A stretch of DNA of 33,427 bases from Opitutia bacterium (GTDB taxonomy: Bacteria > Verrucomicrobiota > Kiritimatiellia > CAIQIC01 > Lenti-01): the NCBI GenBank assembly GCA_009928955.1, contig SABN01000026.1, positions 1 to 33,427 on the forward strand, read 5' to 3'. The translations under genes were made by a program, and so were the position numbers. Shown here in pieces: positions 15,061-25,487 of the stretch. Positions within the stretch are counted from its first letter, which is position 1; every line of letters begins with the position of its first letter. The notes below the pieces were generated by a model. That model ran no database searches. It saw nothing but the letters and a program-made list of their open reading frames with translations, and was not told the DNA's origin.

Positions 15061-16394
15061 ACGCGAACATTCCAACGGCGCCGCTGAGCCTCCTGCGCAC
15101 GTTGCGCGAAAACGGCCACGAGGCGTTTCTCGTCGGCGGAGGCGTCCGCGACCTCCTCCTCGGCCGCGCGCCCAAGGACTGGGACATCGCCACCGACGCC
15201 TTCCCCGACCGCATCGAGTCCCTCTTCCCCAAGACCGTCGCCATCGGCAAGGCCTTCGGCATCATCACCGTCGTGCCCGCCGACGGCGATCCCGTCGAAG
15301 TCGCCACCTATCGCGTCGATTCGCCCTATGCCGATGGACGCCGGCCCGAATCCGTCGGCTTCACCGACGCCCGCGAAGACGCCCTCCGCCGCGACTTCAC
15401 GATCAACGCCCTCTTCCTCGATCCGACCACCGGCGAGATCCGCGACTACGTCCATGGCCGCGCCGATCTCGAGGCGCGCCTCGTCCGCGCCATCGGCGAT
15501 CCCGCCGTCCGCTTCGCCGAAGACCACCTGCGCATGCTGCGCGCCGTCCGCTTCGCCGCCACCCTCGGCTTCGCCATCGAACCCGCCACCTTCGCCGCCA
15601 TCCGGCGGCTCGCGCCGCAAATCCAGCGCATCAGCGCCGAACGCATCCGCGATGAATTGTTCCGCCTGCTGACCGAATCGCAAAAGGCCGGCGAAGCCCT
15701 CCACCTCCTGCGCGACTCGGGGTTGCTGAAGGAAATCCTGCCCGAGATCGACGCCATGGTCGGCGTCGAGCAGCCGCCCGAGTTCCATCCCGAAGGCGAC
15801 GTGTTCACGCACACCCGCCTCATGCTCGACGCCCTGCCGCCGAATCCTTCGCTGCGGCTCGCGCTCTCCGTTCTTCTTCACGACGTCGGCAAGCCGCCCA
15901 CCGCCGCGCTCGTCACGCTCCCCGACGGCACTCCGCGCTGGAGATTCGAATCCCATGCCGCCGTCGGCGCCGACATGGCCCGCGCCATCCTCGAACGCCT
16001 CCGCGCCCCCCACGCGCTCGTCGACGACGTCTGCGCCATCGTCGGCAACCACATGCGCCTCGCCGACGCCCCCAAGATGCGCGCCCCCAAGCTCCGCCGC
16101 CTTTTAGGCGCCCCCACCTTCGAAGACGACCTCGAACTGCACCGCCTCGACTGCCTGTCCTCGCACGCCCTGTTCGAGGTCTACGATTTCCTGAAAGCGG
16201 AAAAGGGGAAGTTCGCCGCCGAGCCCGTCCTGCCTCCGCCTCTCGTCACTGGACGCGACCTCATCGCCCTCGGCCACCCACCCGGCCCGCAGTTCTCGAA
16301 GATCCTCCAGGACGCCTACGACCGCCAACTCGAAGGCCTTTCCGACAAGTCCGCGCTCCTCGCCACGCTCCCGCCCCCGGACCTTCAGAAGTAG
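15057..16394 (+). CDS. cca: CCA tRNA nucleotidyltransferase / poly(A) polymerase family with HD domain
   Basis: Class II nucleotidyltransferase that adds or repairs the 3' CCA of tRNA (or polyadenylates RNA), 445 residues. Visible elements are GGGVRDLLLGRAPKDWDIATD with the metal aspartates D41 and D43, RRDFTINALF and the RNA-binding head FAEDHLRMLRAVRFAATLGF with ISAERIRDEL. An HD phosphohydrolase-like domain (VLLHDVGKP, GNHMRLAD) sits in the second half. The start is odd: no ATG lies before the first strand. TTG 15057, overlapping the xthA stop as TTGA, is my choice; GAAGGA directly precedes it with almost no spacing, so ATT 15069 or a later codon is possible. The 3' end overlaps the convergent outer-membrane protein gene by ten bases. 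CCA-adding and poly(A) activity cannot be separated by eye. Confidence 0.9.
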   Translation: MNANIPTAPLSLLRTLRENGHEAFLVGGGVRDLLLGRAPKDWDIATDAFPDRIESLFPKTVAIGKAFGIITVVPADGDPVEVATYRVDSPYADGRRPESVGFTDAREDALRRDFTINALFLDPTTGEIRDYVHGRADLEARLVRAIGDPAVRFAEDHLRMLRAVRFAATLGFAIEPATFAAIRRLAPQIQRISAERIRDELFRLLTESQKAGEALHLLRDSGLLKEILPEIDAMVGVEQPPEFHPEGDVFTHTRLMLDALPPNPSLRLALSVLLHDVGKPPTAALVTLPDGTPRWRFESHAAVGADMARAILERLRAPHALVDDVCAIVGNHMRLADAPKMRAPKLRRLLGAPTFEDDLELHRLDCLSSHALFEVYDFLKAEKGKFAAEPVLPPPLVTGRDLIALGHPPGPQFSKILQDAYDRQLEGLSDKSALLATLPPPDLQK

Positions 16395-17314
16395 GAGACC
16401 GCCCCCAGTTCGATGAGGCCTTCCTTGCTGTCGCGCGGATGTTCGTCGAGAAGATGCGCGCCCAGGAGGAGGGAGAGGCCAAAGCCCCTTGGATTGAATG
16501 CCACCTCCAATTCCACCCGTTCGCGCGAATACCATTCGTCGTCGCCGTCGAGCAGCACCTGCGTGCGGCTGTTCGCGAACAAGAGCCAGCGGTCGGCGGC
16601 GTGCAGGAGCAGCCGGAGGTCCGCCGTCAGGTCGGCGGTCCAAGCGTTGCCGCCGGCGAGGGATTCCTCGTCCATGCCGGGCAACGAGCGGAGATAGCCC
16701 CCGGCCTCCACGTACCAAATCACGCGCGGCGGAACCGGCCCGCCTTCCCTTCTCCCGAAAAACACCTGCCGCAGAATCTCCGGCCGGATCTCGCGCCGCC
16801 CCGCCCCGAGAAACAACCGGTTGTAATAGACGTCCGGCGGCACGTTGTTGCTGCCGGCGGCGACGTACCACGGCGTCTCGTTGTCCTTGTAGATCAGATG
16901 TTGGCAAACGTGGTTCCATCCGAAGCGAACCAGGTGGGCCGCCGTCCGATATTCCACGAACGGCGTGATTTCATAGGCCGTTTCCTTGGGCGAAAAGGGG
17001 AGGTTTTCCGCGACGGAGGTCCCCATGTTGGCGAGCAGGGTGAACCGGGACCGGAGCGACAGCTTTTCCGCGAACGAGATGAAAGTGAAGTCGAGGGCCA
17101 TGGCGCCTTCGGTGAGGAAGCGATCCTCCTGCAGCTCGTCCTGGTGGTTGGCGAAAAACAACAGGCGGCCGGTGCCGCTGAATTCGGACAGGAACCGCAC
17201 GGAATCCGCCGGGACCTCTGGCTCCGGCGACGCCCATGCCGGCGGCTGACAGACCGCCCAGGCGACGATCCATGCGCCGCCCCATCGAGCGAGATTCAAG
17301 GGGCATCGGTTCAT
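16385..17314 (-). CDS. Predicted outer-membrane protein of unknown function
   Basis: A 309-residue exported protein: N-terminal signal (WGGAWIVAWAVCQPPAWA), then alternating hydrophobic/aromatic beta-strand patterns (LSLRSRFTLLANMG, YEITPFVEYRTAAHLVRFGW, RVELEVAFNPRGFGLSLLLG). The C-terminus is LGAVSYF; a terminal phenylalanine preceded by alternating hydrophobic residues is the classic BAM recognition signal of barrel proteins. I do not recognise a named family. AAAGGAG precedes ATG 17314, which overlaps the stop of the DUF3187-like gene (ATGA), so the two are coupled and probably functionally linked. The 3' end overlaps the convergent cca gene by ten bases, leaving no room for a separate terminator. 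Confidence 0.7.
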   Translation of the reverse strand: MNRCPLNLARWGGAWIVAWAVCQPPAWASPEPEVPADSVRFLSEFSGTGRLLFFANHQDELQEDRFLTEGAMALDFTFISFAEKLSLRSRFTLLANMGTSVAENLPFSPKETAYEITPFVEYRTAAHLVRFGWNHVCQHLIYKDNETPWYVAAGSNNVPPDVYYNRLFLGAGRREIRPEILRQVFFGRREGGPVPPRVIWYVEAGGYLRSLPGMDEESLAGGNAWTADLTADLRLLLHAADRWLLFANSRTQVLLDGDDEWYSRERVELEVAFNPRGFGLSLLLGAHLLDEHPRDSKEGLIELGAVSYF

Positions 17315-18312
17315 AGGCTCCTTTTGAGGCTGAAGTGGAACACGACGTCGGGAGTGGTGTTCACGGCGATATCCTCGGCCACGGCGATGTCGAGCATGAA
17401 CCCCCGCGGCAGGAAAATCGTCGCCCCGGTGACGAGTTCCACCGCCCAGTCGTCGAGCGGCGCCATCTCCGTGCCCGAGAAGAATGGACTGTGCCAATCC
17501 ACCTGCAGGCGCGGCTGCAACCAATCGGCGAGGCGCCAGCCCAGCGAGAAATTTCCATATCCGGCGAAGGGCTCCTGCCGGTCTTCCATGAGGTCTCCCG
17601 GCGTCAGGGCGAGCACGCCGGCGGACCCATGGAGTTCCAACCGCCATCGGGACCAGGAAGCCAGATCGCAAGCGGCCAGCCCGAAGGAAAAATCGGTGCT
17701 GCCGCTGCCGAGCAGGCGGTCCGGATCGCCCGTGGGCAGTTCCACGCCCGCCACCGCATCCACGGCGCGCGCGCCGGCCTTGCCCCGCCACAGCGGAGCG
17801 GAGACGGACAGGCGCACATCGCCCACCCCGGTGGCGGGATCCATCAGGCTGAACGGCGTGGCGTCCCCCCGGCGATAGCGGTATTCCAGGCGGTCGGAAG
17901 GCCGCCGCTTCCGGTTCCCGTCCGGCAATCCCATGGCCTCGTGATACCCCTCGATAAACCCATCCGACACGCCCCCCCGATGCGCCACGACCGGAACGCG
18001 CATCGCGACGCGCCAGCCGTTCTTCCATCCGTGACGCAGCGCAACCCTCGCGCACCACGTCTCGCCATCGAGGACGAGTTCATCCGCCCCGGCGGCCTTC
18101 TCGAAGGAATTGTTGGCGACATCGAGCGCGACGACCAGTTGAAACCCGGCTGGCGCGGCGGCGGCGGCGTCCTCCCCCGAAGGCAGCCCGTACAGACGGC
18201 AGAGGGGATTCTCGTTCTGCGTCATGAACGGAGCCCCCGGCGGTTCCGCACGCACGCCGCCGGCCGCGGCCAGAAGCGCAAGCGCGATGGAAATGGGAAT
18301 CAGAGCCCTCAT
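17311..18312 (-). CDS. DUF3187-like outer-membrane protein
   Basis: A 333-residue exported protein with a clear signal peptide (LIPISIALALLAAAGGVRA). It shows long amphipathic beta-strand segments and the segment DGFIEGYHEAMGLPDGNR, followed by GVGDVRLSVSAPL, VELPTGDPDRLLGSGSTDFSFGLA and the C-terminal FHFSLKRSL. The dispersed G-D-V/L-P-T-G and FH-ALGLP-type signatures are what I associate with DUF3187 proteins, putative outer-membrane barrels of unknown role. It is the first gene of a two-gene unit with the barrel-like gene at 16385-17314 and is divergent from marR. The shared 150-bp region holds the MarR operator, so MarR may also control this pair. Function is not known. Confidence 0.7.
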   Translation of the reverse strand: MRALIPISIALALLAAAGGVRAEPPGAPFMTQNENPLCRLYGLPSGEDAAAAAPAGFQLVVALDVANNSFEKAAGADELVLDGETWCARVALRHGWKNGWRVAMRVPVVAHRGGVSDGFIEGYHEAMGLPDGNRKRRPSDRLEYRYRRGDATPFSLMDPATGVGDVRLSVSAPLWRGKAGARAVDAVAGVELPTGDPDRLLGSGSTDFSFGLAACDLASWSRWRLELHGSAGVLALTPGDLMEDRQEPFAGYGNFSLGWRLADWLQPRLQVDWHSPFFSGTEMAPLDDWAVELVTGATIFLPRGFMLDIAVAEDIAVNTTPDVVFHFSLKRSL

Positions 18313-18409: not shown

Positions 18410-18437
18410 TTGACAATATAGTCCAATATTGTACTAT
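18410..18437 (+). promoter_or_regulatory. Promoter of the marR-efflux operon
   Basis: TTGACA (18410-18415), 16 bases, TACTAT (18432-18437); AAAGGAA then precedes the marR ATG by about seven bases. This is one of the strongest sigma-70-like matches in the window. Confidence 0.7.
18413..18432. promoter_or_regulatory. Inverted repeat overlapping the promoter, probable MarR operator
   Basis: ACAATAT (18413-18419) and ATATTGT (18426-18432) are perfect seven-base arms separated by six bases. They fill the space between the -35 and -10 boxes, so bound repressor would block polymerase. This size and A/T content are typical of MarR-family sites. Confidence 0.7.
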
Positions 18438-18462: not shown

Positions 18463-18948
18463 ATGCCCCCCCCGTCTTCCAAATTCCCTTTGCGGCGCGA
18501 CTGCCGCCCGCCGGACCAGCTGCCGGCCACCAGCATGCTCCCCCTCTGGCGGCGCGTCCATCAGGAGCTGATGATCCGCGCCCAGAAGTGGAAACTCCCT
18601 TCCAATGTCGCCATGGTCCTCGTCCATCTGCATCTCCATCCCGAGGACTCGGAGCCGGCCACCATGGCTGCCGCCAACGACTTCCCCCGCCAAACCATCA
18701 CCTTCATTCTCGACGCTTTGGAGAGTCAAGGGCTGGCCGCCCGCCAACCTCACCCCAACGACCGGCGCCGCAAGCTCGTCGAGCTCACGCCCGAGGGCAA
18801 AACCAAGGCCGAGGAGATGTTCCAAGACATGATCGCCTTCGAATCCGCCGCCCTCCGCACCATCGAAGACGTCGACATGGACCGTCTGCGGAACTTCCTG
18901 GCCCGTTACGCCGATGCGCTGGCCGCCCAGAACGACCGCGACATATAA
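18463..18948 (+). CDS. MarR-family transcriptional regulator
   Basis: A 161-residue winged-helix repressor. The helical dimer region includes LWRRVHQELMIRAQKW. The recognition region is SEPATMAAANDFPRQTITFILDALESQGLAAR, the wing is HPNDRRRKLVELTPEGKTKAEEMF, and the C-terminal dimer helix follows. The D-RR-K-V-LT-G signature is characteristic of MarR. ATG 18463 follows AAAGGAATC. It is the first gene of an operon with an outer-membrane factor, an adaptor and an RND pump, and an inverted repeat lies inside its promoter, so autorepression released by a pump substrate is the likely control. The ligand is unknown. Confidence 0.9.
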   Translation: MPPPSSKFPLRRDCRPPDQLPATSMLPLWRRVHQELMIRAQKWKLPSNVAMVLVHLHLHPEDSEPATMAAANDFPRQTITFILDALESQGLAARQPHPNDRRRKLVELTPEGKTKAEEMFQDMIAFESAALRTIEDVDMDRLRNFLARYADALAAQNDRDI

Positions 18949-18966
18949 GACTTGAAAGGATCCCCC

Positions 18967-20349
18967 ATGCGTTCCCCTCCCCTGTTCCATCCGATGTTCC
19001 TCGGCCTGCTGGCCGCGCTGCTGGCGTCCGGCTGCCGCAGCTTCGAGCCGGCCCGCGCCCGCCGTGAACAGACCGGGTCGTTCACGACCCATCTCGCGCG
19101 CCTCGCCGAGGCCGAGTTGGCCAAACCCCTTGCGCTCGACGACTGCATCCGCCTCGCCATGACGAACAACTACGCGGTGCGCAAGGCCGACCTCGACCGC
19201 GAACTCTACCGCATCGGCAAGAACGTCGCCTTCACCGCCTTCCTGCCGAACGTCGCGGCTTCGGCCGGCTACCATTCCTATGAAAAAGAAATGCCGCAGC
19301 AACACGAAAAGCGGTTCGGCACGGCCGACCTCACGGCCAGCATGCCGATCTTCATGCCGTCCACGTGGTTCCTCTACGCGGCCGCCCGCCACGGCTATGC
19401 CGCCGCCGGCGTCGCCGCCCACTACGTGCGCCAAGGCATCGTGCTGCAAACCAGCGTCAACTACTACAACGTCCTCGTCCAGCAGGACACCCTCGCCGCG
19501 CTGGAAAGCCAGTGGCAGGCCGCGCGCGAAACCGCCGACCGCGTCTCGGGCCTCGCCGACGAAGGCCTCGTGACGAAATGGGAAGGCGACCAGGCGCTCT
19601 TTGCCGCCGAGTTGCGCGAAGCCGAACTGAACCGCGCCCGGCGCCAGCTCGCCGTGCTGCGCGGCGAACTGCTCCAGGGCCTCGGCCTCTCGCCGGCCGC
19701 GCCAATCGAGCTCTCCGGCGAAACCGGCGAAAAAACCATGCCGGCGGGCTCTGTCGAGGACCTCGTGCTGCAGGCGCTGGAAATCCATCCCGAACTGGCC
19801 TTGGCCGACCGGCAGGTCGTCATCCAGGACCATCAGGTGCGGCAGGCGTTCTGCAACTTCCTGCCGACGATCTCCCTCTTCTCCACCGGATCCTGGACCG
19901 GCAACGACCTGGCCGCGCACGCCGAAAACTGGGTCACCGGCTTCCGCGGCGCTTGGACGATCTTCGACGGCCTCGCGAACGTGGCGCGCTACAAGGCCGC
20001 CAAGGTCGAGCGGCGGCAGACGAAGCTGGAGCGCGAAAACACCTTCCTCTCCGTCATGGTCGGCGTCGTCGCCGCCGAGGCCGCCGCGCGCGACGCCGCC
20101 GAAGGCGCCCGCGTCCGCCAGCGCGCCTACGACGTCGCCGCCGCCAAATGGGCGGACTACGACGCCAAGGCCCGCGAAGGGCTTGTCCCCCTGAGCGACG
20201 CGCTCGACGCGCGCGGGGCCATGGACCTCGCGCAAGTCGCGCTCGTCCAGAGCCGCTATCAGGAAAAGATCGCCATCGCGACCCTCGAACTGGCCATGGG
20301 CCTCACCCTCGTCCCCGAACCGAACACCGAACCGAAAGCAGAGAAGTAA
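18967..20349 (+). CDS. TolC/NodT-type outer-membrane efflux lipoprotein
   Basis: The 460-residue outer-membrane factor of a tripartite pump. The N-terminus is a lipoprotein signal with lipobox LLASGC. After that come LALDDCIRLAMTNNYAVRKADLD, the usual start of the first TolC half, long helical stretches, and a second half beginning VEDLVLQALEIHPELALADRQ. The repeated helix-strand halves match the family's internal duplication. Gene order (regulator, outer-membrane factor, adaptor, transporter) supports the call. The start is ATG 18967, with AAAGGA seven bases before it. Only one base separates its stop from the adaptor ATG. Substrates cannot be inferred. Confidence 0.9.
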   Translation: MRSPPLFHPMFLGLLAALLASGCRSFEPARARREQTGSFTTHLARLAEAELAKPLALDDCIRLAMTNNYAVRKADLDRELYRIGKNVAFTAFLPNVAASAGYHSYEKEMPQQHEKRFGTADLTASMPIFMPSTWFLYAAARHGYAAAGVAAHYVRQGIVLQTSVNYYNVLVQQDTLAALESQWQAARETADRVSGLADEGLVTKWEGDQALFAAELREAELNRARRQLAVLRGELLQGLGLSPAAPIELSGETGEKTMPAGSVEDLVLQALEIHPELALADRQVVIQDHQVRQAFCNFLPTISLFSTGSWTGNDLAAHAENWVTGFRGAWTIFDGLANVARYKAAKVERRQTKLERENTFLSVMVGVVAAEAAARDAAEGARVRQRAYDVAAAKWADYDAKAREGLVPLSDALDARGAMDLAQVALVQSRYQEKIAIATLELAMGLTLVPEPNTEPKAEK

Positions 20350-20350
20350 C

Positions 20351-21514
20351 ATGAAAACCAAGCGCATCGCCCGTTCCCTCCTCGCCGCCGCCCTGTCCGC
20401 CGCCGTTCTCGCGACCGGCTGCGGGAAGAAGGAGGCCGCCGCCGAAGAAGCCACCCGCGCGCTGGCCGTCCGCGCCCAAGCCGTCGCCCCGCGCGGTTTC
20501 GAACGGCGCCTGACCGTGCAGGGCACGCTCGAAGCCAAGAACTATGCGAACGTGGCCTCCCGCGCCGAGGGCAACCTCGACGCGATCTGGGTCGATGAAG
20601 GCGATCCCGTCGTCGCCGGCGAAACCGCCCTTTTCCAGATCGATCCCGTCAGCCGCGAGAACTCGCTGACCATCGCCAAGCAGAACCGGGCCGTCGCCGC
20701 CGCCTCCCTGAAAGTCGCCGAGGCCTCCGCCCGGAAAACCGAGGCCGAAGCCCGCAAGGCCACGCTCGATTTCGACCGCTACGAACGCCTCCATCAGGAC
20801 GGCAAGGTCAGCGACAACGAATACGAGTCCGCCGAAGTCCAGCGCGCGCAGGCCCAGGCCGGCATCGCCGTCGCCAAGGCCCAGGTCGACCTCGCCGAGC
20901 GCCAGGTCAAGCAGGCCGAGGCCTCCCTTTCCATCGCGGAGAAGAACCTCGCCGACACCCAGATCCTCGCGCCGATCTCCGGCGTCGTGAGCTCCCGCAC
21001 GGCCGAGCCCGGCGAGCAGATGGCCGTCGGCAAAGTCGTCCTGCGCATCGACGATCTCGCCGTCGTCGAAGCCGCCGCTTATCTTCCCGCCCAGTACTAT
21101 CCCGAAGTGGTTCCCGGCGAAACGACCTTCCGCCTCGGCGTCGGCGGACGCGAGGCCGGCACGCACGCCATCACAACCCGCAGCCCCACCATCAATCCCA
21201 CCCTGCGCACGTTCGAAATCAAGGGCCAGGTCGAGGCCGCCGATGGCCTCGTCGTCCCCGGCCAAATGGCCGACCTCACGATCGTCTTCGAAACCCGCGA
21301 AACCCTCGGCGTCCCCTCCGCCTCCGTTCTCGTCCGCGGCGGCAAGCCGGTCGTCTTCGCCGTGCAGGACGGCAAGGCCATCTCCCGCCAAGTCGAAACC
21401 GGCCTCCAGAACGACGCCTGGACCGAAATCCGCTCCGGCCTCGAGGCCGGCGAAATCGTCGTGACCGAAGGCCAGACCCAGCTCCGCGACGGCATGGCCG
21501 TCGAAGTCCTTTGA
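20351..21514 (+). CDS. RND efflux periplasmic adaptor (membrane fusion protein)
   Basis: A 387-residue adaptor with a lipoprotein signal (LSAAVLATGC) that would anchor it to a membrane, probably the inner one. The N-terminal lipoyl half (VQGTLEAKNYANVASRAEGNLDAIWVDEGDPV) and C-terminal half (ADTQILAPISGVVSSRTAEPGEQM) flank an Ala/Glu/Lys-rich coiled hairpin of about 110 residues. A beta-barrel and a membrane-proximal domain follow (PSASVLVRGGKPVVFAVQDGKA). This is the standard AcrA/MexA/MdtA layout. It lies one base after the outer-membrane factor gene; the pump gene follows only after a 150-bp spacer that contains a long hairpin repeat. Confidence 0.93.
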   Translation: MKTKRIARSLLAAALSAAVLATGCGKKEAAAEEATRALAVRAQAVAPRGFERRLTVQGTLEAKNYANVASRAEGNLDAIWVDEGDPVVAGETALFQIDPVSRENSLTIAKQNRAVAAASLKVAEASARKTEAEARKATLDFDRYERLHQDGKVSDNEYESAEVQRAQAQAGIAVAKAQVDLAERQVKQAEASLSIAEKNLADTQILAPISGVVSSRTAEPGEQMAVGKVVLRIDDLAVVEAAAYLPAQYYPEVVPGETTFRLGVGGREAGTHAITTRSPTINPTLRTFEIKGQVEAADGLVVPGQMADLTIVFETRETLGVPSASVLVRGGKPVVFAVQDGKAISRQVETGLQNDAWTEIRSGLEAGEIVVTEGQTQLRDGMAVEVL

Positions 21515-21518
21515 AGTT

Positions 21519-21612
21519 CCAACCACGGATAAACACGGATGAACACGGATAAAATCATAATTGGGTCGAGGATCGAAGCCATCCGTGTCCATCCGTGTCC
21601 ATCCGTGGTTGG
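21519..21612. repeat. Long hairpin of six 10-bp CACGGAT units in the efflux operon
   Basis: Three direct units (ACCACGGAT, AACACGGAT, AACACGGAT; ten-base period, arm 21519-21550) face three inverted units (ATCCGTGTCC twice, then ATCCGTGGTT; arm 21581-21612) across 30 unrelated bases. The arms are complementary at 29 of 32 positions. It lies between the adaptor stop and the pump ribosome site, so an mRNA stem here could reduce pump translation or block transcript decay. Confidence 0.85.
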
Positions 21613-21664: not shown

Positions 21665-24600
21665 ATGTTCCTCGCCAACGCCTCCACGAAACGACCCATC
21701 GCGATGGGCTGCCTGCTCATCGCCCTCGTCGTGCTCGGACTCAATTCCGCCCGCAAGCTTTCCATCGAGGACATACCTGCGGTCGACATCCCCTACATCG
21801 CCGTGATCACCGCCTGGGTCGGCGCCTCGCCCGAAGACGTGGAGAAAGACGTCAGCAAGTACATCGAGGACGCCGTTTCCGGCATCGACGGCCTCAAGCA
21901 CATCGAGTCCTCCAGCCTCGAGAACGTGTCCCAGGTCGTTCTCGAATTCAACCTCTCCGTCGACGTGGATACGGCCGCGCAGGACGTGCGCGAAAAGCTC
22001 GACCCCATCCTCTCCAAATTGCCTGCGGACGCCGAACGCCCCGTCATCCAGAAGATCAACATCAACGCCAAGCCCATCGCCAACGTCTTCCTCTCCGGCG
22101 AGGCGCCCATCGACGATCTCTACGACTACGCCGACAACGTCGTCGCCGACCGCTTCGCCACCATTCCCGGCGTCGCCGAAGTCCAGGTCATCGGCGGCAA
22201 CGAACGCGAAGTGGGGGTCGAACTCGACCGCGACGCCCTCGCCGCCGCCGGCTTGACCACCTTCGACGTCACGGCCGCCTTGCAGGGCGGCGTCCTCTCC
22301 CTCCCCGGCGGCCGCATCCGCGAGCGCGGCAACGAATATTCCATCCGCTTCGACGCCGAATACCAGGACGTCGCCGACATCGCCGGCCTCGAAGTCGCCA
22401 CCCGGGGCGGCGCCCGCCGCCGCCTCGGCGATCTCGGCACCGTCCGCCTCGCCACCGCCGAAATCCGCCAGCGCGCCATCCTCGACGGCCGGCCAGGCAT
22501 CGTGCTCAAGATCGTCAAGAAGGCGGAGGGCAACATCGTCTCCGTCGTCGCGGAATCGCGCCAGCGCTTCGAGGAAATCCGCCGCACCCTTCCGGGCGGC
22601 ATGGAACTCGCCTGGGTGTCCGACGAGGCCGAAAACATCCAGGCCTCCGTCGATTCCGCCATCTCCGGCGTGCTTCAGGCCGTCGGCGTGTGCGCGCTCA
22701 TCCTCTTCATCTTCCTCGTCAACGTCCGCACGACCATCGTCGTGGCCATCACCATGCCCGTCACCATCTTGATCGGCCTGTTCTTCATGCAGCTCGCCGG
22801 GCAGACGCTCAACACCGTCACCTTGCTGGCCATCGGCCTCTCCACGGGCGTGCTGGTCTCCAATTCCATCGTCGTCCTCGAAAACATCGTTTCGAAGTTC
22901 GAGACCATGGACGACCATTGGGCCGCCGCCGGCGAAGGCGCCTCGGAAGTCACCGTTTCCGTGCTGGCCTCGGCGGGCACCAACGTCATCGTCATGTTTC
23001 CCATCGCCATGATGTCGAGCATGGTCGGCCGCATCCTCGCCCCCTTCGCCGTCGCCACCCTCATCGTCAACGCCGCGTCCATTTTTGTCAGCTTCACCCT
23101 CACCCCCATCCTGTGCGCGATCCTGATGCAGCCCGCCTCGAAGCGCAAGGACACGGCGCTGGCCCGCTTCGGCCAGCGCTGGGACGCCGGCTTCCAGGCG
23201 TTCGCCGTCCGCTACGCCAACGGCCTCCGCCGCATCGCCCGCAGCCGTTTCTTCACCGCCGCCATCGTTCTCGGCTTCGTCGTGCTCTTCTTCGGCACGA
23301 TGAAGTTCGGCGGCGGCCGGCTCGGCTTCACGTTCTTCGAAACCGCCGACAACGGCCGCATCTTCGTTCGCGTCGAAACGCCCCCCTACTACGACCTCGA
23401 AAAGACCGTCGCCCGCCTCGAGGGCATCCAGGCGCGCCTGATGGGCTCTTCCGACCTCCAGCACGTCCTCACCACCGCCGGCAAGGCCGAGTCCATGAGC
23501 GGCCAGGCCAGCGAAGGCGTCTACATGGGCCAGATCGAGCTGTTCTTCGCCCCCAAGACCGCGCGCCGCTGGAAGATCGTCGACCGCATCGGGGAAATCC
23601 GCGCCCTGCTGCGCGACGAAACCGACTGCATGGTCTCCGCCGCGCTGCCCAGCAAGATGGGCGGCCAGAATTTCCAGATCGACCAGAACCTCTCCGGCGA
23701 CGACCTCGAAACCCTCGACCGCGCCGCCCTCGCCATCCAGTCCGCCGCGCTCGCCCTGCCCGGCGTGAGCACGCTCGAAACCACCGTCCGCGACACCAAG
23801 CCCGAAATCCGCATCCAACCCAAGCGCGCCGTCCTGTCGGACCTCGGCCTGCCGGCCTCCCGGCTTGGGGCCATCGTCCGCGCCAATGTCGACGGCATCG
23901 AGGCCGCCAGCTACAAGCGCGGCGACCGCACCTACGACATCCGCGTCAAGCTCGCCGAGCGCGAAGGCAAGGACCAGATCCGCCAGTTCATGCTGCCCGG
24001 CGCCGACGGCCGCCCCATCCCCCTCGAGACCGTCGCCGACGTCGTCGATGCACGGTCCCTCATCCAGATCTACCGCGTCGACAAGCGCCGCACCGTCAAG
24101 ATCCTCGGCGACATCCGGCCCGACGCCACCATGAGCGGCGTCGGCGCCGACATGGCCCGCGCGATTAAAGAAAAGAACCTGCTCCCGGCCGGCTACACCC
24201 TCGGCAACTCCGGCATGTCCGAAATCATGGACGACGCCATCGCCGACTTCGGCGAGGCGATCCTGCTCGCCGTTTTCCTGACGCTGCTCACCCTCTCCGC
24301 CATCCTCGAATCCTGGAGCCGGCCTGGCTTCGTCCTGCTCACGCTCCCCATGGCCCTCATCGGCGTCGTCGCGTCCCTCGTGTTCAGCGGCTCCGCCATC
24401 ACCATCCTCGTCCTCCTCGGCATCCTCATGCTCATCGGCGTCGTCGTCAACGGGGCCATCCTCATCGTGGACAAGATGGCCCAGCACCTCCGCGAAGGCG
24501 TCTGCCGCCGCGAAGCCATGCTCACCGCCATGGTCGAGCAGTTCCGCCCCGTGCTCATGGTCGTGCTGGCCTCCGGGCTCGGCATGCTGCCCATCGCCCT

Positions 24601-24772
24601 CAGTTCCGGCATCGGCTCCGAAAACCGCGCCGGCATCGGCATCGCCTCCGTCGGTGGAATCCTCGTCGCCGGCGTCCTGACCTTGACCCTCCTGCCGCTG
24701 ATCTACACTCTCTTTGCCGGCAAGCCCAAGGCCGAACACCCCGGCGAGCCCACGGAGCCCTGCCCGCATTGA
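21665..24772 (+). CDS. RND-family efflux permease (HAE-1-like) with altered proton-relay residues
   Basis: The 1035-residue inner-membrane pump subunit. The layout is the usual one: TM1 (KRPIAMGCLLIALVVLG), a first periplasmic loop (WVGASPEDVEKDVSKYIEDAVSGI), TM2-6, a long soluble linker, TM7, a second loop, and TM8-12 ending LTLLPLIYTLFAG. It is the right length and position for the partner of the preceding adaptor and TolC-like gene. Oddity: where AcrB has V-D407-D408-A in TM4, this protein reads VSNS (S399, N400), and where AcrB has K940 in TM10 it has N929; the TM11 threonine position is valine. Only the TM11 arginine (FRPVLM) is kept. The family normally uses these residues for proton coupling, so the energy coupling may differ. 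GGAG lies nine bases before the ATG. Confidence 0.9.
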   Translation: MFLANASTKRPIAMGCLLIALVVLGLNSARKLSIEDIPAVDIPYIAVITAWVGASPEDVEKDVSKYIEDAVSGIDGLKHIESSSLENVSQVVLEFNLSVDVDTAAQDVREKLDPILSKLPADAERPVIQKININAKPIANVFLSGEAPIDDLYDYADNVVADRFATIPGVAEVQVIGGNEREVGVELDRDALAAAGLTTFDVTAALQGGVLSLPGGRIRERGNEYSIRFDAEYQDVADIAGLEVATRGGARRRLGDLGTVRLATAEIRQRAILDGRPGIVLKIVKKAEGNIVSVVAESRQRFEEIRRTLPGGMELAWVSDEAENIQASVDSAISGVLQAVGVCALILFIFLVNVRTTIVVAITMPVTILIGLFFMQLAGQTLNTVTLLAIGLSTGVLVSNSIVVLENIVSKFETMDDHWAAAGEGASEVTVSVLASAGTNVIVMFPIAMMSSMVGRILAPFAVATLIVNAASIFVSFTLTPILCAILMQPASKRKDTALARFGQRWDAGFQAFAVRYANGLRRIARSRFFTAAIVLGFVVLFFGTMKFGGGRLGFTFFETADNGRIFVRVETPPYYDLEKTVARLEGIQARLMGSSDLQHVLTTAGKAESMSGQASEGVYMGQIELFFAPKTARRWKIVDRIGEIRALLRDETDCMVSAALPSKMGGQNFQIDQNLSGDDLETLDRAALAIQSAALALPGVSTLETTVRDTKPEIRIQPKRAVLSDLGLPASRLGAIVRANVDGIEAASYKRGDRTYDIRVKLAEREGKDQIRQFMLPGADGRPIPLETVADVVDARSLIQIYRVDKRRTVKILGDIRPDATMSGVGADMARAIKEKNLLPAGYTLGNSGMSEIMDDAIADFGEAILLAVFLTLLTLSAILESWSRPGFVLLTLPMALIGVVASLVFSGSAITILVLLGILMLIGVVVNGAILIVDKMAQHLREGVCRREAMLTAMVEQFRPVLMVVLASGLGMLPIALSSGIGSENRAGIGIASVGGILVAGVLTLTLLPLIYTLFAGKPKAEHPGEPTEPCPH

Positions 24773-24782
24773 TCGAACCGAC

Positions 24783-25487
24783 ATGGCCGCGTCCCGCCCA
24801 TCCCCGCCCGCCGCCCCTCCGGAAAAAATCCTGAAGGAGTCCCGCCACTGGGAACTCCTGCGAATACGCCGCGCCAAGGAAACCCGGCGTTCCGTGTTCC
24901 GCGTGGATGGCCATTACGTGGTCAAGAAATTCGAGATCCCGCTGGATGTCCGCCGCTACCGCCGCCCCTGGCTGGCGGAGGACGCCTGCCTGCGCCGCCT
25001 CGACGGCATCGGCGCCCCGCGCTCCTACGGCTGGTGCGAGGAAACCGAGGCCGACCAGCGCGTCGTCTGGCTGGTGAAGGAATACGTCGCCGGCAAGCCC
25101 GTCGACACCTTCGCCGCGGCCGACCTGCCCGCCGTCGCTCGCCTCATGGCCCGCATCCACAGCCAGCAGATCATCACCGACGACGCCAGCGCCGGAAACT
25201 TCATCCGCACCCTGGACGGGGAGATGCAGTTTTTGGATTTCGGCCGCGCCAAACTGTTCCGCCGGCCCGGCTTCCGGTTCGATCTGCATGCCGGCGGGGA
25301 ACTGGCCAAGTTCCGCCGCGAGGGTCTTCGCTGGAACGCCGAACTCTGGCAGGCCTTTGTCCCGCTCTACGTCGAAGCCTTCGGCGGCTCGCGCTTCCGC
25401 CGCGTCCGCCTCCACGCCGCTTGTTCCGCCGCCACCGCCCTCCGCAGGCTGCGCAAAATTTCACAAGGAAAATCCCCCAGGAGCTGA
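24783..25487 (+). CDS. Lipopolysaccharide kinase-like (Kdo/WaaP-type) protein
   Basis: A 234-residue compact kinase fold. VVKKF (K48/K49) fits the ATP-binding lysine and E66 in WLAEDACLRRL the paired glutamate. LVKEYVAGKPV is the hinge, IHSQQIITDDASAGNFI (D133/D134, N139) the catalytic loop, and FLDFGRAKLFR the metal-binding aspartate (D152). The arrangement resembles WaaP/KdkA/InaA kinases that phosphorylate Kdo or heptose in the LPS inner core, and less so RIO or other small kinases. It follows the RND gene after ten bases and precedes a glycosyltransferase and a PagL-like deacylase, which supports an LOS/lipid A role. ATG 24783 has only a weak ribosome site, so translation may be coupled to the pump gene. 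The substrate is inferred. Confidence 0.7.
   Translation: MAASRPSPPAAPPEKILKESRHWELLRIRRAKETRRSVFRVDGHYVVKKFEIPLDVRRYRRPWLAEDACLRRLDGIGAPRSYGWCEETEADQRVVWLVKEYVAGKPVDTFAAADLPAVARLMARIHSQQIITDDASAGNFIRTLDGEMQFLDFGRAKLFRRPGFRFDLHAGGELAKFRREGLRWNAELWQAFVPLYVEAFGGSRFRRVRLHAACSAATALRRLRKISQGKSPRS

Follow-up and report, generated by a model that had tools for sequence, protein, structure and literature searches.

The RND permease encoded in the window (the whole stretch of 33,427 nucleotides analysed here) belongs to one old tripartite RND clade that has, almost certainly, exchanged its titratable proton site for a constant array of polar residues without charge. Across AcrB-like pumps, D407 is reported to be highly conserved and essential for converting the proton-motive force. 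RND proteins and tripartite operons are already known; for the D407-less clade with its neutral site, searches of the open-access literature on RND pumps that lack the relay or use Na+ gave no earlier description.

An RND permease without the AcrB relay

Profile, fold and operon place the window protein among the RND tripartite permeases (Table 1). Its open reading frame is intact, and the match to PF00873 spans residues 5-1017 with a score far above the cut-off of 28 bits. The AlphaFold model (pLDDT 86, pTM 0.78) has the AcrB fold, with a TM score of 0.91 against AcrD/AcrB in Foldseek. The curated cut-offs of the named subfamilies, on the other hand, are not reached: for HAE1 the scores are 400.5 against 940 (TIGR00915), 598.7 against 1250 (NF033617) and 445.2 against 1250 (NF000282), and for HME 332 against 701 (TIGR00914, CusA/CzcA). 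The references fetched for comparison were E. coli AcrB (NC_000913.3), MdtB, MdtC and CusA; among those of HAE1 type, MdtB is the nearest by sequence.

Table 1. Coordinates of the efflux operon and of the coupling-site residues in the window
Feature	Position	Strand	Evidence
MarR-family regulator, start codon uncertain	18505..18948	+	Pfam MarR_2
TolC-type outer-membrane factor (OMF), probable lipoprotein	18952..20349	+	Pfam OEP PF02321, 140 bits
Periplasmic adaptor (MFP), probable lipoprotein	20351..21514	+	TIGR01730, 190 bits vs cut-off 94.9
Palindromic dispersed repeat in MFP-RND gap, outside the pump itself	21523..21608	.	More copies in genome
RND permease (ACR_tran), D407-less clade member, 1035 aa	21665..24772	+	Pfam PF00873, 684 bits
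TM4 site: S393 (AcrB A401), S399 (D407), N400 (D408), S401 (A409), E406 (E414)	22841..22882	+	AcrB alignment
TM5 N440 (AcrB L449), clade-specific invariant Asn, lines former proton site	22982..22984	+	111/111 clade
TM6 N469 (AcrB M478; T or N in clade), S472 (AcrB S481)	23069..23080	+	AcrB alignment
TM9 T893 (AcrB V904), invariant clade Thr	24341..24343	+	110/110
TM10 N929 (AcrB K940)	24449..24451	+	110/111 clade
TM11 Q959 (AcrB R971), R961 (AcrB R973), V966 (AcrB T978)	24539..24562	+	AcrB alignment

Where AcrB has D, D, K, R, R and T at positions 407, 408, 940, 971, 973 and 978, the window permease has S, N, N, Q, R and V, and all five relay residues (407, 408, 940, 971 and 978) are replaced. 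An earlier note on this DNA had placed S399 and N400 in a VSNS motif of TM4, N929 in TM10 and a valine at the relay threonine; the AcrB alignment and the codon positions bear out each of these, coordinates included (VSNS at 22856-22867, S399 at 22859-22861 and N400 at 22862-22864). Its statement that only the arginine remains has to be corrected, however. The arginine in question, R961, aligns with AcrB R973, and the relay arginine R971 corresponds to Q959, so that the loss of the relay is more complete than first claimed. The TM4 motif G403-X3-D407-X6-E414 likewise reads G395-X3-S399-X6-E406, and neither R971 nor T978 is retained.

The same note had named acidic residues elsewhere at the same membrane depth as a finding that would overturn its reading. 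We looked for them and found none: across the TM cores of the window permease, no helix has an ionisable or charged residue in its core, and the clade has acquired no acid of its own in the membrane core. E406 and D936 sit at the cytoplasmic ends of TM4 and TM10 and are common to the clade and to canonical pumps.

Which of these losses are unusual was calibrated on 50 canonical pumps, namely 39 pumps of the same class, E. coli AcrB, MdtB and MdtC, the genome's own paralogue L001 and seven near neighbours. Asparagine occupies position 408 in 22 of the 50 and position 940 in 24, and the paralogue itself reads DNN-RT at the relay positions; D407, R971 and T978 are each kept in all 50. As N408 and N940 are ordinary among canonical pumps, the true anomaly is the loss of D407 and, in the window permease, of R971 and T978 as well. 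In the literature, a review describes D407 as highly conserved within GX3DX6E, D408 as less so and the basic residue of TM10 as not essential (PMC5719797), and a Burkholderia survey of 254 RND proteins found the TM4 motif in every one and reported that R971 and T978 are conserved throughout (PMC2891726).

Extent and history of the D407-less clade

D407 is absent in all 112 clade members read at that position, and its loss is thus not due to chance; these and the following clade tallies leave out L117 and the basal or degenerate L159, L209, L208 and L210, which are reported apart. Homologues in 145 related genomes are 39-81% identical to the window permease, after which identity drops to 32% and below, and the clade as a whole ranges over 31-81%. 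With the group profile, about 100 genes in about 90 of 338 genomes of the phylum score at least 1216 bits, followed by a gap down to 1032; the gene count is a lower bound made by hand, with two candidates scored per genome and the site read in part of them.

Beyond the phylum, a scan of GTDB genomes with the group alignment gave 80 loci whose labels span more than ten phyla: Kiritimatiellae, Lentisphaeria/Victivallales, Phycisphaerae, Hydrogenedentota, Riflebacteria, Muiribacterium, Thermogutta, Ignavibacteria, Kapabacteria, Cloacimonadota, Calditrichaeota, Fibrobacter, Latescibacterota, Desulfobulbaceae and others. As the clade records are mostly MAGs, individual labels may be wrong. At position 407, 79 of the 80 loci carry T, A, S or (once) M, the exception being L117 with D. 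In a maximum-likelihood tree of 65 proteins from which the trait columns were removed, all D407-less proteins form one branch with 100% SH-aLRT, and the D407 state changes twice in all; the tree is a quick one without bootstraps, and its canonical sample comes mostly from one phylum. The suggestion that the pump may represent a distinct subfamily is borne out by this single branch and by its spread over MAGs whose labels come from more than ten phyla.

The remaining relay residues were given up less uniformly, R971 being kept in 13 clade members and T978 in 30; since members near the base of the clade keep R971, this residue was lost after D407. Two proteins near the base, L159 and L209 (the latter outside the tree), have asparagine at 407, 408 and 940 and retain R971, and appear to be natural intermediates between the canonical and the neutral site. 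L117, from the Lentisphaerae MAG SIG94, reads VDNS in TM4 and keeps N449, T478, T904 and K971, an apparent reversion to D407 within the D407-less clade. Two degenerate paralogues, L208 and L210 (G146:C1 and G192:C4), adjoin an MFP gene and have an almost non-polar TM4/TM10 core (LAACSIPV, GVALAGAY); both genomes also hold an ordinary clade copy elsewhere. At one further locus, L059 (G029:C146), the RND frame stays open into a signal peptide and a TolC-like OMF, 1476 aa in total, as a result of either gene fusion or a stop codon lost in assembly.

A neutral set at the former proton site

The residues found in place of the relay are largely uniform across the clade. In AcrB numbering, the clade has N408 in 112/112, N449 in 111/111, N940 in 110/111, T904 in 110/110 and S481 in 109/109 of the sequences read, followed by S401 (108/114), S409 (108/112), T or N at 478 (108/110) and T, A or S at 407 (111/112). 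Translated to the window permease, N400, N440, S472, T893 and N929 are invariant in the clade, and S393 and S401 nearly so. In canonical pumps, position 449 is T, L, V or F, whereas 904 is usually S, A or G and 401 usually A.

Homology to AcrB suggests that these replacements cluster at one site. In an AcrB inhibitor structure, L449, the L404 carbonyl, D407, D408 and K940 surround a bound charged piperazine (PMC8749003), and the AcrB proton site can thus already accommodate a cationic group; S481 is hydrogen-bonded to D408 (PMC4359379). Given that L449 lines the D407/D408/K940 site and S481 bonds D408, the new asparagine, N449, the most important of the replacements, would occupy the old proton site. 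L208 and L210 have lost N408, N449, T478, T904 and N940 together, and such a joint loss of five members would be expected if the neutral set worked as one functional unit.

What may drive the pump

The earlier note had proposed another ion or coupling path, an alternative with which the neutral replacement site is compatible. Our own preference, which we hold tentatively and which comes from comparing sequences, is that the clade consists of active tripartite exporters with a neutral coupling site that use a non-proton cation, Na+ being favoured. Substrate would be taken up from the periplasm or the outer leaflet and exported through the MFP and OMF, with transport proceeding by the usual three-state rotation. 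The clade site would be made up of T, S or A at 399, N400 and S401 (TM4), N440 (TM5), T or N at 469 and S472 (TM6), T893 (TM9) and N929 (TM10). The TM4/TM10 interface would then be flipped by a cation, most likely Na+, held on amide, hydroxyl and backbone oxygens, and not by a carboxylate-bound H+; cation binding would add a positive charge to a neutral site, the counterpart of protonation in AcrB, which takes a negative charge away.

As the membrane core has no titratable group left, a carboxylate-held proton is an improbable driving ion. The leaning towards Na+ comes from the RND proteins PTCH1 and DISP1, which have been linked to Na+ at the equivalent position (PMC9949057), although known Na+ sites of RND proteins use carboxylates and the present site has none, which counts against Na+, and from VcINDY, whose Na+ sites consist of Ser/Asn/Thr motifs and backbone carbonyls, helped by helix dipoles (PMC9098524). 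A third pointer, the RnfD/NqrB-type and V-type ATPase K subunit genes carried by the genome, is weak and confounded by taxonomy; OadB was absent in a search of the genome for Na+-pump genes. The subunit K of the V-type ATP synthase (L201:1219-1683) has SQ, Q and ET residues, which we take to resemble those of Na+-type rings. The more sweeping proposition is that, in a whole multi-phylum branch of tripartite RND exporters, the proton-carrying aspartates have given way to an Asn/Ser/Thr site without any charge, in a membrane core free of acidic residues, and that a cation other than H+, probably Na+, binds there and powers transport; this we regard as possible and hold with greater reserve.

It is unlikely, if still worth serious consideration, that the pumps have remained proton driven, with H+ travelling along a water wire and binding to E406 and D936, and the Asn/Ser/Thr set only orienting the water. 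The two acids are conserved at the cytoplasmic ends and could still be carrying protons: the equivalent of E414 is found in 111/111 clade members and that of D947 in 106/110, and in AcrB R971 and E414 are in contact over the interface between the repeats (PMC8277102). However, canonical pumps conserve both carboxylates to about the same degree and yet never lack D407; the two acids lie outside the membrane core, and the partner R971 is gone in most clade members.

Selection on the clade

The gene is constrained, yet its rate of evolution is roughly double that of the canonical paralogue. Within the genus, dN/dS of the window gene family is 0.21-0.40, and in one species pair it is 0.40 for this gene versus 0.22 for the paralogue, at nearly equal dS (0.41 and 0.40). 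The faster rate could reflect a partly relaxed function, and, together with the loss of every canonical coupling residue and the paralogues L208 and L210 that have lost even the neutral set, it speaks for an uncoupled relative, an RND protein acting as a gated conduit or a substrate-sensing scaffold in the MFP-OMF complex. On balance we consider this improbable, somewhat more so than continued proton drive. In the TM core (TM4/5/6/10/11/12; pairs at 25-40% overall identity), identity is 0.517 in the clade (0.350 overall) versus 0.451 in canonical pumps (0.320 overall), and TM4, TM5, TM6 and TM10 are each more conserved than in working pumps; TM11, the former carrier of R971 and T978, is alone in being less conserved. 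A disused energy domain predicts the opposite, which argues against decay of the clade, and a passive scaffold would leave polar residues that are invariant across phyla unexplained.

Operon and genome context

The gene order MarR-OMF-MFP-RND provides both partners of a tripartite efflux system, and a promoter-like site (18410-18437) lies directly upstream of the MarR gene. Clade RND genes usually have an MFP and often an OMF alongside, and in most clade loci with enough flank an adaptor match is found about 2 kb upstream of the RND gene; the window adaptor itself finds no match at many distant clade loci, where search sensitivity may be limiting. The repeat array between the MFP and RND genes consists of CACGGATNNA units and forms a predicted hairpin of -55.9 kcal/mol (z -5.8); its motif recurs in several other contigs, and it thus looks like a dispersed repeat element. 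On the minus strand, a DUF3187 protein (17311-18312) is divergent from the MarR gene and adjoins a second protein (16385-17314).

Downstream, the end of the RND gene is overlapped by a kinase-like protein (24714-25487; a weak ABC1/atypical kinase match, below the cut-off), followed by a GT4 glycosyltransferase and then a PagL-like protein; an AEC-type transporter is also found downstream. All four neighbours recur in close relatives only. The kinase-like, GT4 and PagL-like genes are possibly an envelope-lipid cluster limited to those relatives, and a link to LPS as a trait of the clade was dropped on account of this restriction.

The context also bears on whether the permease could be a subunit that borrows energy by sharing a trimer with a canonical D407 pump, in the manner of MdtC in MdtB2C. 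Unequal subunit roles are known in MdtB2C (PMC4338810), and the same genome does hold canonical RND genes. MdtB and MdtC, however, are encoded by adjacent genes, whereas a second RND gene is present in none of 35 clade neighbourhoods and in 4 of 80 wider loci, there several kb away, and the canonical paralogues are merely about 29% identical. The heteromeric MdtBC arrangement, with its adjacent second RND gene, is thus not seen in the 35 neighbourhoods, and we consider a mixed trimer very unlikely. Finally, although the genome is a draft MAG of 345 contigs, a decaying pseudogene or a sequencing or binning artefact is refuted by the recurrence of the same residues in over 110 sequences drawn from many genomes and by purifying selection (dN/dS well below 1), with the reading frame intact and the operon complete.

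Implications

With D407 lost from a large natural clade and all other parts of the machine still in place, one can test directly which residues are needed for RND energy coupling and whether RND pumps can use Na+. L159, L209 and L117, as natural intermediates, may reveal how one coupling site turns into another. In more practical terms, the annotation "efflux RND permease" does not by itself mean proton drive.

Comparison with known systems

With MdtBC and MuxBC, where one subunit contributes less to proton coupling, the likeness ends at that feature: their genes are paired and both MdtB and MdtC retain the relay, whereas the window permease has no partner gene. The Na+ transporters of the DASS family, such as VcINDY, hold the ion with side chains near Ser-Asn-Thr motifs and with carbonyls; their fold is unrelated, and they serve as an analogy only. 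Eukaryotic PTCH1 and Dispatched have the RND fold in common with the clade and a proposed non-proton cation at the TM4/TM10 site, but they hold Na+ with a carboxylate triad and lack MFP and OMF partners; the window permease, with its uncharged TM cores, has no such triad on TM4/TM10. Canonical single-Asp pumps (VDNA...GVVVNNAI type, e.g., L001) share N408 and N940 with the clade but retain D407, R971 and T978, and are without N449 and mostly without T904 and S401. With the HAE1-type permeases (AcrB, MdtB, AdeJ and CmeB) the window permease shares the fold, the length, the 12 TM helices, the porter and docking domains and the OMF-MFP-RND operon; these pumps keep D407 of GX3DX6E, whereas the window permease has lost it along with R971 and T978 and carries the neutral N/S/T set instead.
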